A stretch of 64,000 nucleotides of DNA from Candidatus Bathyarchaeota archaeon. Its GTDB lineage: Archaea; Thermoproteota; Bathyarchaeia; Bathyarchaeales; Bathycorpusculaceae. The notes under the pieces are model-generated. The model ran no database searches. It worked only from the letters and a program-made list of their open reading frames with translations, and was not told the origin of the DNA. Shown piece by piece: positions 56,887 to 64,000 of this stretch (position 1 is the first letter of the stretch; each line of letters begins with the position of its first letter). The DNA is taken from NCBI GenBank assembly GCA_018396705.1, contig JAGTQZ010000003.1, forward strand, positions 1 to 64,000, given 5' to 3'. The translations under genes and the position numbers were made by a program.

Positions 56887-57534
56887 CTAATAGTACTTCT
56901 CTAAAGAAGCTATCTGCTCATTTATTGGCTTCAGAATTTCTCCACAGTAGGGGCAAACGTTAAACTCGGGAAGCACAGGTTTCCCGCATGTTACACAGAT
57001 TTTTGGGTGTCTCAGCTTCTCTTCAAAGCTTTTTAGCTCTTTTTTCAAATGGGTGAGTTCGGCTTTTATTTTTTCTACGCCCTCTTTGAGGGGCTGTATT
57101 TCTTTTATCTCAGCTCTTATGTTGTAGATTAGGTCTTTGACTTCTGAAAGTATTTCGTTGTTCATTTCGACGGTTTCGTTCATGACGTCTAGGATTTCGC
57201 TTTTCTCTTCTAGCAGTTGGGTTTCCACGGCGCTTTGTTTTTTGGCGTCGGATAGAATTTTGTTTAGGAAGGCTTCTACAGGGTTTTCAAAGGCTATGGC
57301 GCATGTTATTCCCCAAAAGATTATGGTGGAGAGGGCGGTGACGAGAAGGTACACGTTAGGTGTTATTGCTTGAATTTTTGCCTCGTCAACTGGGTATAGA
57401 CTTAGAAGGGTTGGCGGTTTGTTGAATATTATGGTGTTGGCTGCGTCGGCTAAGTGGGCGACTGCTATTGCTGTTATGATGCTGAAGAGCCATACGCCGA
57501 AACCTTTTTGGTCAAGTTTTCTCCCAGCGTTCAT
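56887..57534 (-). CDS. Membrane protein with coiled coil and C-terminal zinc ribbon
   Basis: The 215-residue protein has two membrane helices (about 13-33 and 60-83), a long coiled coil (about 95-175), and a zinc ribbon at the end (CVTCGKP...CPYCGE). No family is recognised. It converges on gatE with 10 bp between the genes. Confidence 0.7.
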   Translation of the reverse strand: MNAGRKLDQKGFGVWLFSIITAIAVAHLADAANTIIFNKPPTLLSLYPVDEAKIQAITPNVYLLVTALSTIIFWGITCAIAFENPVEAFLNKILSDAKKQSAVETQLLEEKSEILDVMNETVEMNNEILSEVKDLIYNIRAEIKEIQPLKEGVEKIKAELTHLKKELKSFEEKLRHPKICVTCGKPVLPEFNVCPYCGEILKPINEQIASLEKYY

Positions 57535-57644
57535 ATTGCATCGTAATATTTAATACGATATTCCCAGGGCCACAATATGTCAACACGCGTAAATTCTAAA
57601 AGGAGAACCACCACTCATATAGTGTAGTCCGTTAGGGTGAGAAG

Positions 57645-58136
57645 GTGGCGAAGCAGCCAAGCGAAGAGTTTTCCATCCGCGTAAAGGCTGGCGAATATGA
57701 GGTTGAACTTAAAGGTTCAAAAAGCGAAGTACTAGAAACCATAAGAGAGTTGCCCAATCTAATGCTAAACTTTAACAAGGCCTTTGAAAGCCTAAAATCG
57801 AAAGAGATAGCCGTGATGGCCAAGGCGTCCAGTCCAACTCCGGTGACCGTTGTCAAGGCTGAATCTCCCATAGAAAGGTACCCGAAAATTCCAAAAGTGG
57901 AAAACTGCAGCGAGGCACTCTTGCGAGTCTTGGAAAGCGACTGGGGTAAATGGCGTCCACGAACCGTTACGGAGCTGAAAGAAGCTTTAGCCGCCAACGA
58001 CATGCATTTTCCAGGGCGAACTCTGGCTGGGGACCTGTTGGCTCTTGTGCGGAAGGGTGTGGTTAGATGCTGGAAAACGGATAAGGGTTATGTCTATATT
58101 CTAGCTGAAAAGGAGGTATTAGCCCAACAGCAGTAA
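57645..58136 (+). CDS. Two-domain archaeal protein, paralogue 1 (beta domain + winged helix)
   Basis: The 163-residue product starts at GTG after GGGTGAGAAG. Residues about 8-38 (FSIRVKAGEYEVELKGSKSE) form a short beta-rich domain that recurs in three more proteins of this region. Residues about 85-155 (CSEALLRVLESDWGKWRPRT, then LVRKGVVRCWKTDKGYVYI) look like a winged helix and align with the C-terminus of the 61056 protein. First of a three-gene operon. Function unknown; DNA-binding is likely from the fold. Confidence 0.7.
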   Translation: MAKQPSEEFSIRVKAGEYEVELKGSKSEVLETIRELPNLMLNFNKAFESLKSKEIAVMAKASSPTPVTVVKAESPIERYPKIPKVENCSEALLRVLESDWGKWRPRTVTELKEALAANDMHFPGRTLAGDLLALVRKGVVRCWKTDKGYVYILAEKEVLAQQQ

Positions 58137-58157
58137 AGAGGGGATGGAGGGCACGCG

Positions 58158-58634
58158 ATGAAAAGAGTTGAAGTTCGCATAAAAGCACCTTTCGGCGAAA
58201 TAGTTGTGGAGGGCGAAACGCCCCAAGAAGTTTTAGGCCTCTTGGAAGCCTTTCCGAAAGACTTTGTGGAAAACGTTTCCAGCCTGGTGGCAAGCAAGCT
58301 TGCGCCTTCCGCAGCTGCCCAGCTTAAAGGCATAATAGAGTTCACCACCGAGGGGCCTGTGCTGATTGCTCCCCGCGAGAAGCTTACACATTACGAGGCT
58401 ATTGGACTTGTTCTATACGCTTCAGAGGGAAGACAAAACACCGCCACCCAAATTCAGAAGCTTCTTGAATCCAGCGGTGTAAAGTGCATGGTGCCGGCTC
58501 GCCTAAATGAGATGGTCAAACGCGGCCAAGTGTTTAAACCGGATCCGAAAAGGCCGGAGTTCAAGCTGACGGTTCAAGGAGAAAAATGGATTGAGGAGGA
58601 AGTCTTAGCTAAACTCCGAGGGATGATGACGTGA
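58158..58634 (+). CDS. Two-domain archaeal protein, paralogue 2
   Basis: The 158-residue product has the same N-terminal module (VEVRIKAPFGEIVVEGETPQ). A linker with LIAPREKLTHYEAIGLVLYA and a winged-helix-like end (ARLNEMVKRGQVFKPDPKR) follow; these align with paralogue 3. It starts at ATG after GGAGGGCACGCG and overlaps paralogue 3 by 4 bp (GTGA). Confidence 0.7.
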   Translation: MKRVEVRIKAPFGEIVVEGETPQEVLGLLEAFPKDFVENVSSLVASKLAPSAAAQLKGIIEFTTEGPVLIAPREKLTHYEAIGLVLYASEGRQNTATQIQKLLESSGVKCMVPARLNEMVKRGQVFKPDPKRPEFKLTVQGEKWIEEEVLAKLRGMMT

Positions 58635-59140
58635 CCAGCCAGCCGCCACTGACGGTTCACGTGAAATACGGCGACGTTGAGTACACGTTTGCCGGCAGCC
58701 TTGAAGAGGTTTGGACAGCTCTAAACAGGTTTTTCGCCGAGCATGCTCCAGCCTTTCAAATCGCCAAGGCTCTGGTTTTAAATGTTGATTTGCGGAAACT
58801 TGTGGAAGACTGTAGAGGCTTGATTGGTTTTGCAGATAATGCGCCCCATCTGCTTGTTTCGAAGGAGAAGCTTACGGACAATGAGACCTTGGCTTTGCAC
58901 CTTTTAGCCGCCCATTTAGGGTTTAGGCTTGGCATGCTAAAAACTGATGTTCTATCGCGGGAGGAGCTTCAAGCTAAGCTGGGTAAAAACCCGAAGATCA
59001 CGAGTACACGTCTCGGCGAGCTTGTAAAGGCGGAAATCGCCGAAAAAACAAGCGATGGCGGATATCGCATAACAGGGTTTGGCATTGCTCAAATGCAGAG
59101 GGAATGGCTTCCAAAAATCAAAGCGAAATTAGGCTTATAG
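58631..59140 (+). CDS. Two-domain archaeal protein, paralogue 3
   Basis: The 169-residue product starts at GTG inside the stop of paralogue 2. Its N-terminal module TVHVKYGDVEYTFAGSLEEV, the EKLTDNETLALHLLAA segment and the C-terminal TSTRLGELVKAEIAEKTSDG align with paralogue 2. It converges on the Sfm1-like gene with a 6 bp overlap. Function unknown. Confidence 0.7.
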   Translation: MTSQPPLTVHVKYGDVEYTFAGSLEEVWTALNRFFAEHAPAFQIAKALVLNVDLRKLVEDCRGLIGFADNAPHLLVSKEKLTDNETLALHLLAAHLGFRLGMLKTDVLSREELQAKLGKNPKITSTRLGELVKAEIAEKTSDGGYRITGFGIAQMQREWLPKIKAKLGL

Positions 59141-59761
59141 GCTTGACCATTTTTCGCCCTTAAACAGTTTCTCTTCATCTTTCACTATTTCGTCCGAGCA
59201 GAGGTACGCCACCAGTTTCGGGCTTATAACGGGTTTTCCATCCCGCAGCGGATAAGCATACGGCAGATACACTTCACCATACTCGTTAAGCTTCAACCTC
59301 AAGCCTTTCTTAACTGGTATAGCCTCTAACGGTGTTCCTTCGCCGACAAGCTTAGCCACGTAAACGGCTCCGTCAATGGAGAACTGCCACATGCCAATAT
59401 GGCGCACAACCGTCCCTGAAAAACGCCTCGTCAAAAGCTTTCTTGTTCTGCCCCGCGGCGGGTGGTCGCCCAAAATCCCACCCACAACGACAGCTTCCTT
59501 ACCAACAAAATCTTCAGGCTTTAATGGAAGCTCAGCCTTAGGATCCAAAACTATGACTTTTCCGTGGCTGAAAATCTCCGCCGCACCCTTCTCCTCAACC
59601 ATGCCAAACTCCGAAAGCAGCCGCCGTTCATCCGCTTCCTTAACATTTGTGAACATTAAGTGGTTTTTGCCTACAATCTCCGAGGCATGCTCATACTCGA
59701 AAAGAAGCCACTTGCCAATCTCAGGCTCCAAATGCTCAATCACAAAAACCAGTTTTGCCAT
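59135..59761 (-). CDS. SPOUT methyltransferase, Sfm1/DUF431-like
   Basis: The 208-residue protein begins FVIEHLEPEIGKWLLFEYEH, followed by LMFTNV and GGILGDHPPRGRTRKLL, the pattern of the DUF431/Sfm1 family of SPOUT-fold enzymes. In yeast Sfm1 methylates an arginine of ribosomal protein uS3; archaeal members are presumed to act on protein or RNA. The SAM-binding trefoil-knot segment is around residues 85-160. The start is ATG. Confidence 0.85.
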   Translation of the reverse strand: MAKLVFVIEHLEPEIGKWLLFEYEHASEIVGKNHLMFTNVKEADERRLLSEFGMVEEKGAAEIFSHGKVIVLDPKAELPLKPEDFVGKEAVVVGGILGDHPPRGRTRKLLTRRFSGTVVRHIGMWQFSIDGAVYVAKLVGEGTPLEAIPVKKGLRLKLNEYGEVYLPYAYPLRDGKPVISPKLVAYLCSDEIVKDEEKLFKGEKWSSL

Positions 59762-61055: not shown

Positions 61056-61460
61056 TCATGGTGGTGGTCTTTTTTGGGCGTATTGGTATCGGCGTGGTTT
61101 TCCATCTCTGGTTAGGATGCCGTCTTTAACTAGGTCTATTAGGGCGTGGGCTACGGCTGTTCTGTCGTAGTGGTATCCTCTTTTTGCCATTTCGCTGTGG
61201 ACTTCGCTTAGGGTTTTTGGCGTGGCGAACCATCCTTCTTCCCATAATTTTTGGATGATGCCTTTGCATGTTTCCGCTCTTGGCGGTGGGGGTGCATGTT
61301 CAGTGGTGGCGATGGGCGTCTGTTTGAGTTTTTCTGTTATGGTTGATAGGATGCGGTCTACTGCTGACTGCAATTGGTCTTCTTGGCATTCTATTTCGAT
61401 TTCTATTTCGCCAATGCGCATTTTTAGGCGGATGGGTGGTTTTGCGCTGTTTTGCGTCAA
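61056..61460 (-). CDS. Two-domain archaeal protein, paralogue 4
   Basis: TTG 61460 is preceded by GGTGG at a good distance and lies downstream of the shared TATA box, so I prefer it to the first in-frame ATG at 61541. The 134-residue product has the N-terminal module (LKMRIGEIEIEIECQEDQLQ), a proline-rich linker, and a C-terminal winged-helix-like domain (CKGIIQKLWEEGW...TAVAHALIDLVKDGILTRDG) that aligns with paralogue 1. It is divergent from nurA. Confidence 0.7.
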   Translation of the reverse strand: MTQNSAKPPIRLKMRIGEIEIEIECQEDQLQSAVDRILSTITEKLKQTPIATTEHAPPPPRAETCKGIIQKLWEEGWFATPKTLSEVHSEMAKRGYHYDRTAVAHALIDLVKDGILTRDGKPRRYQYAQKRPPP

Positions 61461-61505
61461 TTTTCCACCTTGTTGAATATTGAATTGCGCATCTTGTTCA
61501 TGCAC

Positions 61506-61518
61506 AACATTTATATAC
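61506..61518. promoter_or_regulatory. Bidirectional TATA box between paralogue 4 and nurA
   Basis: ACATTTATATACT contains TTTATATA forward and TATATAAAT in reverse. It is about 40 bp before nurA (TTG 61553) and about 50 bp before paralogue 4 (TTG 61460), so one element could serve both and couple their expression. Confidence 0.5.
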
Positions 61519-61552
61519 TCCTTCCGCCCACACAAGTGCATGTTGGTGAATC

Positions 61553-62647
61553 TTGGTGATTGAACAATACACTATAACAACAACACCAAAATATAATTTT
61601 CCACAAAACACCATAGACACATCGCTACCCCAACGATTCATAGAACTAAGCCTATATTCGCTGAAGCATGTGCAAAACCAAGCCATTCAAATAAAACAAC
61701 AAATTCAACAAAACCCATTCAACAACCAAGAAACCCTAGTTGCATCGCAGTTTACACCACCCACACAAGCCATACCGTTAAACCCAAAACCGGAACCACC
61801 AACCACCATAGCTGCAGTGGACACATCCAGCATAAAACTAGGCGAAACAAACAAAGGCATCATAATCGCCATCCGCGGAACCACAGTATGGAAACAGGCC
61901 AAAAACTATGCTTACCTACGCGTTGGACCCTTCATATTTCACATAACTGAGGATAATCTACAAGAAGTCTACAACACCCTTTTGAAGGCATATTTCCCGG
62001 AACAAAGCCACCAGCTATCACCGGGCTTCATACAAATCCCAACACGAATGGCAAACCTGCTGGAAAAATGGCTGCAAGCCTCACTAGTTAAAACTATAAG
62101 CAATGGCATAATTCTCTTCGACGGCTCCTTAACAGCTGGAACTGCTGACACACCGACACAGCAGTTGAAGGAGATTTTAGCTGCCGCGAGAAGTATGGGC
62201 AACACGGTGTTAGCCTTCACAAAAGTGACGACATTAAGGTTCAACGGATGCCTAATAACAGAAGCCTTTCCAGCCTACAAGCCCCCATGCCTAATAGAAG
62301 TGGCAAACATCAAACCGAAACCGCCACTAACACTTTTAGGCGAGGTTTACGTGGCGAAATTAGCCCGGGGCAACTACGCCTTCCGCCTGGACGTAGATCG
62401 CGAACTACCAGCGCAGAAACGCATAGAAGCCGTTGAACGCCTTTTAGGAAACGACTTGATAATGCAGGGCTACCCAGAAACGCTGCGGCTTGCGCACATC
62501 TTGTGCACTTTTACTGCTAACGAGGTGATTGCTATGCAACACTTCATACAACAACGCTACCGCCTAAAAATAATCGACCGCCCAGACATGCACCGGCTAC
62601 TGTTTGGACCCTTTGGGAAGGGCGAAAGCCACCATGAGGCTATATAG
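61553..62647 (+). CDS. nurA: NurA 5'-3' nuclease
   Basis: The 364-residue protein contains the NurA metal-binding motifs: AAVDTSSIKLGE near residue 90 (first Asp) and ILFDGSL near residue 188 (second Asp). A later region with LRLDVDRELP-like acidic residues fits the third. NurA trims DNA ends together with the HerA ATPase. Its gene overlaps herA by 14 bp. The first 75 residues are glutamine/asparagine-rich and unlike the core. Mre11 and Rad50 genes, often in the same operon, are not in view. Confidence 0.9.
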   Translation: MVIEQYTITTTPKYNFPQNTIDTSLPQRFIELSLYSLKHVQNQAIQIKQQIQQNPFNNQETLVASQFTPPTQAIPLNPKPEPPTTIAAVDTSSIKLGETNKGIIIAIRGTTVWKQAKNYAYLRVGPFIFHITEDNLQEVYNTLLKAYFPEQSHQLSPGFIQIPTRMANLLEKWLQASLVKTISNGIILFDGSLTAGTADTPTQQLKEILAAARSMGNTVLAFTKVTTLRFNGCLITEAFPAYKPPCLIEVANIKPKPPLTLLGEVYVAKLARGNYAFRLDVDRELPAQKRIEAVERLLGNDLIMQGYPETLRLAHILCTFTANEVIAMQHFIQQRYRLKIIDRPDMHRLLFGPFGKGESHHEAI

Positions 62648-64000
62648 GAAAGAAGGCAACATAATAGAAATTCTAAGCTTTCCAAACGAAAGCGTGGAAA
62701 AAGGCGACTATCTTCTCATAGAGGATGGGGAAGCACAAAAAGCGTTAATAGCTCAAGTTATAGACGTGCAGTTCGCCAACATACCAGGTGTCTTAGAAGA
62801 ACTGCTGCGAAGCTTACCAGACGGTGGAGGTATAATACAAGGTGAAGACGTGGACCCGCTTGAGATTGCACCCCACATAACGTATATTCAGGATTCCAGA
62901 CTTTTGATATGTAAGATCCGCGCCACCCTAGAGGGGGAACACCTAAGCCCAAGCACCTCATGGCTGCCTTCACGTTCGCAGTCCTCGGTCAAAAAACTGC
63001 CTATCCCAATGCTTCTCAAGCTGGCGAGGGTTAATGGCAACCTTCCCATAACTTTAGGCGTGACAAAGGAGAACTCGCTTTTAACTATAGACGCCACATC
63101 GCTGGATGGAAGGCTAAACATTATTACTGGCAAGAAGGAGACAGGCAAGTCGCACCTTTCAAAGCTTCTGATAACAAGCCTCCTCCAATACAAGGCGGTG
63201 GTTATCGTCCTAGACTTGAACGGTGAATACACTGGTTTAGGCTTCACGTCAGATGGCAAACGCAACGCCTACTTTAACAGGATCCACGTTCTAACACCTT
63301 CACAAAACTTCAAAGTAGCCCTAAAACAGCTCCACCTAAACGTCATCCTAAACATTCTCATCCATGCCTTGCATTTGCCAGGCACATCTACCCGCGAGTT
63401 CCGTCGAATATGGCAGTTCCTTAAAGACAAGGGATGCCTAACACTGCACGAGTTGGGCGAGGCTATCCGCAACTGGAACTGCAACCAAAACGTTAGGGAC
63501 GCCCTCTTCAGCCGCTATTATGCGCTGGTGAACTCCGGCTTCTTTACGGATAATGTGGCGGAAGCCAACCTGCTGGAGGAATGCCTATTCAAGGCTAGGG
63601 AGGAGGGGGGCGCAGTAATTATTAATTTGCGTAACACTTCGCCCATAGACCGTCAAATAGTAGTCGAATACTTGCTGGGCAAGCTTGTGGAGCTTTTGAC
63701 AAGCTGGAGGCTTAAGGCTGTTTTCCTCTTCGCTGAGGAAGCCCATCTCTATCTACGGGAAACCTACTGGGATGACATTGTAACGCGGATGCGCCACTTC
63801 GGCATATTCACCACCTTCATAACAAACCAGCCTGACACAATCCGCGAGAGCATCTACCGACAAGCAGACAACATATTCCTATTCAACTTCACCAACGAAC
63901 ATGACTTAGAAGTAGTTTCCAGGGCAGCCCGCGTGGACGCTGAAACCGTCAAATCCATAGCCCGCGACCTTCCGCCACACCACTGCCTTGTTCTGGGCAA
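62634..64000 (+). CDS. herA: HerA DNA translocase, 3' end outside window
   Basis: From ATG 62634 the frame stays open to the right edge (455 codons). A short beta-barrel-like N-terminus (HAS domain, about 1-110) precedes the ATPase core with Walker A ITGKKETGKS near residue 166, LDLNGEY, and Walker B FLFAEEAH near residue 363. FITNQPDTI and RQADNIFLFN are typical HerA motifs. With NurA it resects DNA ends during recombination. Confidence 0.92.
   Translation, partial: MRLYRKEGNIIEILSFPNESVEKGDYLLIEDGEAQKALIAQVIDVQFANIPGVLEELLRSLPDGGGIIQGEDVDPLEIAPHITYIQDSRLLICKIRATLEGEHLSPSTSWLPSRSQSSVKKLPIPMLLKLARVNGNLPITLGVTKENSLLTIDATSLDGRLNIITGKKETGKSHLSKLLITSLLQYKAVVIVLDLNGEYTGLGFTSDGKRNAYFNRIHVLTPSQNFKVALKQLHLNVILNILIHALHLPGTSTREFRRIWQFLKDKGCLTLHELGEAIRNWNCNQNVRDALFSRYYALVNSGFFTDNVAEANLLEECLFKAREEGGAVIINLRNTSPIDRQIVVEYLLGKLVELLTSWRLKAVFLFAEEAHLYLRETYWDDIVTRMRHFGIFTTFITNQPDTIRESIYRQADNIFLFNFTNEHDLEVVSRAARVDAETVKSIARDLPPHHCLVLG

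Follow-up and report, generated by a model that had tools for sequence, protein, structure and literature searches.

P4, a small winged-helix protein encoded in the 64,000-nucleotide window of a Bathyarchaeota genome analysed here (1.71 Mb in 9 contigs), is probably a self-regulating transcription factor dedicated to the divergent P4/nurA-herA unit, with its paralogues P1, P2 and P3 as possible partners. P4 is most likely the dedicated switch of nurA-herA because it is found almost only beside this pair, next to a conserved repeat that occurs at a single locus. How archaea control DNA-end resection by HerA-NurA is little understood. With its near-exclusive occurrence alongside NurA and the phylum-wide cis-element beside it, P4 offers a candidate open to direct testing in archaea that have been studied little. 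The HerA-NurA literature consulted, a review included, covers the enzymes and, in Sulfolobales, damage induction of the operon, and describes no dedicated regulator. Searches of open-access papers likewise brought up no account of P1–P4 or of the cis-element.

Four proteins share an N-terminal module and form two winged-helix pairs

The four Bathyarchaeia proteins are a real set, built from a common N-terminal beta-beta-alpha module and one of two C-terminal winged-helix families (P1 with P4, P2 with P3). P1 (57645–58136, + strand) and P2 (58158–58634, +) consist of the module and a winged helix, of the P4 type and the P3 type, respectively. P3 (58631–59140, +) has a middle part between the two. 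P4 (61056–61460, − strand; first called as 61056–61541) comprises the module, a linker and a BlaI-like winged helix, and contains two near-invariant motifs, GxHYDRTAVAHAL and RRYxYxQKRPP.

Profiles were built from relatives and their N- and C-terminal halves were compared separately, with reversed profiles as the control. The N-terminal ∼40 residues align between P1 and P2 (6e-7), P1 and P4 (4e-6), P1 and P3 (9e-6), and P3 and P4 (3e-5), and more weakly between P2 and P3 (1e-4); the reversed-profile controls gave 8e-4 to 0.07. Direct N-terminal alignment of P2 and P4 was not significant (0.007), and each of the two aligns with P1 and P3. The C-terminal halves align within pairs only (P1–P4, 3e-8; P2–P3, 3e-12; cross-pair, ∼0.008), and comparison of the whole profiles joined P1/P4 to P2/P3 with an E-value of 5e-7.

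AlphaFold models of P3 (pLDDT 90, confident) and P4 (pLDDT 74, moderate confidence) both show the beta-beta-alpha module, made of two 7-residue strands and a helix, with the winged helix further on. The first-pass annotation had proposed a shared N-terminal beta module and two alignable pairs of winged-helix C-termini (1 with 4, 2 with 3). The profile alignments uphold both proposals, and the common N-terminal fold is borne out for the two proteins modelled.

No known family in Pfam, NCBIfam or PADLOC passes for P1–P4. Among the PADLOC defence models, P1–P4 and NurA are without a match, and HerA matches HerA-type models and mad8. Viral contigs searched with P1 and P4 contained no relative, and a viral origin of these two was rejected.

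BlaI-type repressors are closest to the P4 winged helix. The winged-helix half resembles BlaI/MecI (Penicillinase_R, PF03965), with matches to 2g9w (E 3e-4) and 1p6r (E 0.0066). P4 itself scores 18.7 bits against a PF03965 cut-off of 22.6 bits; 25 of 87 P4 members match the family at E≤0.01, the best at 0.00065. The domain order is opposite: BlaI/MecI proteins have the winged helix at the N-terminus and dimerisation helices at the C-terminus, whereas P4 begins with the beta-beta-alpha module and ends with the winged helix. By analogy, P4 would exert adjacent, local control in a style similar to that of BlaI/MecI.

Searches of the PDB with the P3 and P4 models returned mostly winged-helix proteins at weak E-values, and no prominent counterpart of the beta-beta-alpha module. 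The top match of the P4 winged helix is that of Hop2 (2mh2, E 0.0086), a weak and generic similarity to a protein that differs in domain order and context. The best match of P3 is AspA, the centromere-binding protein of pNOB8 (E 0.011), and covers the winged helix alone. Because these fold matches are weak, kinship with Hop2 or AspA was not adopted. A very improbable alternative is that P1–P4 are chromatin-like or centromere-binding-type proteins with AspA- or RTP-like winged helices, which polymerise on DNA from a nucleation site at nurA. The AspA match, a weak RTP match of P4 and the tandem 9-bp units described below are consistent with such proteins. Set against this are the weakness of the fold matches and their restriction to the winged helix, the neighbourhood maps, which show no prominent partition-type partner around the P1–P4 genes, and the disappearance of P4 together with NurA, where a core factor would be retained.

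P4 starts downstream of a TATA box in the gap to nurA

P4 starts at TTG 61460, not at 61541, the position to which the gene had been called at first. The TTG is preceded by a Shine-Dalgarno sequence (61470–61465) and, further upstream, by a TATA box, TATATAAA (61510–61517, −), recognised by its sequence and by column conservation. The 27 codons 5′ of the TTG contain stops in the longer frame of relatives, and the DNA there is conserved and non-coding. A start at 61541 is ruled out by these stops and by the TATA box within that stretch.

The TATA box lies inside the 92-base gap that separates P4 from the divergent nurA (61553–62647, +; PF09376, 22.1 bits, cut-off 21). The end of nurA is overlapped by herA (62604–64000, +; PF01935), which continues beyond the window to about 64151; Pfam thus confirms both members of the pair named in the first-pass annotation.

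P4 recurs beside nurA-herA and is lost with NurA

Matches at E≤0.01 were found among 151 relatives for P1 (76), P2 (131), P3 (94) and P4 (105), a few of the P1 and P4 rows being cross-hits between that pair. Of 300 genomes sampled phylum-wide, 82 have P4 and 120 have P2/P3-type proteins. The set had been taken for a lineage-specific expansion, a view excluded by its occurrence in many Thermoproteota families.

Throughout the Thermoproteota genomes examined, P4 adjoins nurA-herA divergently, even where the contig is distant from P1–P3, so that the recurrent linkage expected of a NurA-HerA-associated family is seen. Each strong P4 in the regions outside the order is divergent from a nurA-herA pair; most of these pairs were recognised by profiles, some by Pfam, and those in L278, L287 and L291 by gene size, order and similarity to L276/L277. 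The same enzymes are encoded in the herA-mre11-rad50-nurA operon of Saccharolobus (Sulfolobales), which is induced in the Orc1-2-centred DNA damage response (PMC10470591). Unlike in that operon, nurA-herA is a separate unit at the mapped loci and is accompanied by a divergent winged-helix gene.

Counting strong hits only in the 151 relatives, P4 and NurA are both present in 94 genomes and both absent from 51; 4 genomes have P4 without NurA, and 2 have NurA without P4. At least four of the six discordant genomes (G021, G047, G106, G036) have a match at a contig end. P4 is adjacent to and divergent from NurA in 91 of the 94 genomes, the three exceptions being contig ends (G044, G150) and a second copy (G136). 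Genome G045 has lost nurA and retains a stub of herA, and a stop interrupts its P4 (L431:2122–2550, +). On a tree of GatD/GatE/P2, NurA differs in 13 independent pairs, of which P4 follows in 10 and opposes in none (p=0.002). Part of this co-loss follows from the adjacency of P4 and nurA, which can be removed in a single deletion.

P3, which can be far from nurA, is present in 7 of 10 NurA-positive and 0 of 22 NurA-negative genomes of genus g11, suggesting a tendency of this unlinked gene to disappear together with NurA; on the tree, co-loss of P3 and NurA was about 4 against 1 and not significant after correction for relatedness. P2, the most conserved member, is kept also in genomes without NurA. 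Genetic linkage and co-occurrence with nurA-herA were found for P4 and in part for P3. The annotated tie of the whole DNA-binding set to NurA-HerA thus holds tightly for P4 and more weakly for P3, and is not seen for P2.

P1-P2-P3 lie downstream of gatE in many genomes (after gatD-gatE in the window). This position would suit a role of P1–P3, tied to the gatD-gatE cluster, in translation or tRNA metabolism, with P4 alone concerned with nurA. Retention of P2 without NurA also fits such a role. We regard it as quite improbable, given that P3 partly tracks NurA, that winged helices suggest DNA, and that several families have P3 between gatE and P4-nurA-herA.

A TGNNCA array is confined to the P4-nurA region

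Immediately after the TATA box of P4 lies an operator-like element, TTGTGCATGAACAAGATGCGCAA (61485–61507, −), which occurs at one site only in its own genome. It contains three TGNNCA units (61506–61501, 61500–61495 and 61491–61486), at element positions 1, 7 and 16, as generally in Bathyarchaeia, where 195 units were observed against 8.8 expected. Outside Bathyarchaeia, most families have TGNNCA units that repeat every 9 bp after the TATA box (e.g., TTGCGCAAGATGTTCAACATGAACA); the 36 nt after the P4 TATA box there hold 29 units against 1.3 expected, with a spacing of 9. The array is more palindromic in families f22, f26 and f31. Enrichment extends to the nurA side (18 observed, 5.0 expected), and in some families a second array with 9-bp spacing lies there near the nurA start (L288:10104–10145).

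No enrichment was found at 265 other genes (49 observed, 63 expected), nor at P3, HerA or GatD/E. Among 1741 TATA-like windows, every one with three or more TGNNCA units is a P4 promoter, and 16 of 17 pattern matches in 19 genomes fall in the P4-nurA region. A weight matrix made from the conserved block immediately after the P4 TATA box was run over the loci compared and found 97 sites, 93 of them by a P4 start; of the other four, three are strong and lie in loci fetched via a P4 match, and one, elsewhere, is weak. The P4 promoter therefore carries a conserved, specific site that is rare elsewhere, as would that of an autoregulated local transcription factor. A regulon with many sites is ruled out by the single site in the own genome and the near absence of others in the 19 genomes.

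In archaeal promoters, a protein bound between the TATA box and the transcription start is generally expected to repress. The element lies between the P4 TATA box and the expected P4 transcription start, and binding there would therefore repress P4.

The first-pass annotation had left the choice between a regulator and an adaptor for DNA-end processing, and the conserved single-locus array favours the regulator. It is unlikely that P4, with P3 or P1, is instead a structural accessory of HerA-NurA, a DNA-binding adaptor for loading or restraining the machine at DNA ends, the array being secondary. The near-perfect co-occurrence of P4 and NurA and the tendency of unlinked P3 to go missing with NurA agree with an adaptor, and paralogues with a common N-terminal module would suit a hetero-oligomer. 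An adaptor alone, however, leaves unexplained a phylum-wide repeat array confined to P4's own promoter region, and P4 is divergent from nurA-herA, outside the operon.

A model for local control of nurA-herA

For P4 as a local regulator, the following scheme is proposed. The TGNNCA array between the TATA box and the start site of P4 would be the target of the protein's own C-terminal BlaI-like winged helix, although another paralogue or protein could bind it instead. Bound P4 would block its own transcription (negative autoregulation) and, from the same short region, would control the divergent nurA-herA transcript. The beta-beta-alpha module may mediate self-assembly or pairing with P1–P3. As homology and neighbourhood suggest, P1–P3 would be partners of P4 that, perhaps in mixed oligomers with it, tune or relieve repression.

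A more far-reaching version, which we consider rather unlikely, has P1–P4 as a previously undescribed hetero-oligomeric DNA-binding complex, assembled on the beta-beta-alpha module, that would act both on nurA-herA expression, through the 9-bp iteron array, and at DNA ends, by delivering or restraining HerA-NurA. Such a complex, if real, would be a dedicated resection-control system for much of Thermoproteota.

Other features of the P1-P3 and herA neighbourhoods

Upstream of P1-P2-P3 lies GTAAATTCTAAAAGG (57589–57603, +), present as a single copy in the genome and at the same place in relatives; it may be an unusual TATA/BRE or an operator. Between gatE and P1, a gene on the − strand (56887–57534) encodes a protein predicted to contain a coiled coil and a zinc ribbon; the protein recurs in the family, its cluster being represented in 11 loci. 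An SFM1-like methyltransferase gene (59135–59761, −; PF04252, E 2.5e-51) lies between P3 and P4, a position that it occupies among close relatives only. Tandem copies of P3 are present in several families of the order (L149, L152, L153, L154, L155 and L156). The HerA of one Thermoproteota genome (L277:5842–8352, −; 836 aa) carries an intein at the ATP-binding loop (Pfam Intein_splicing, E 6e-20).
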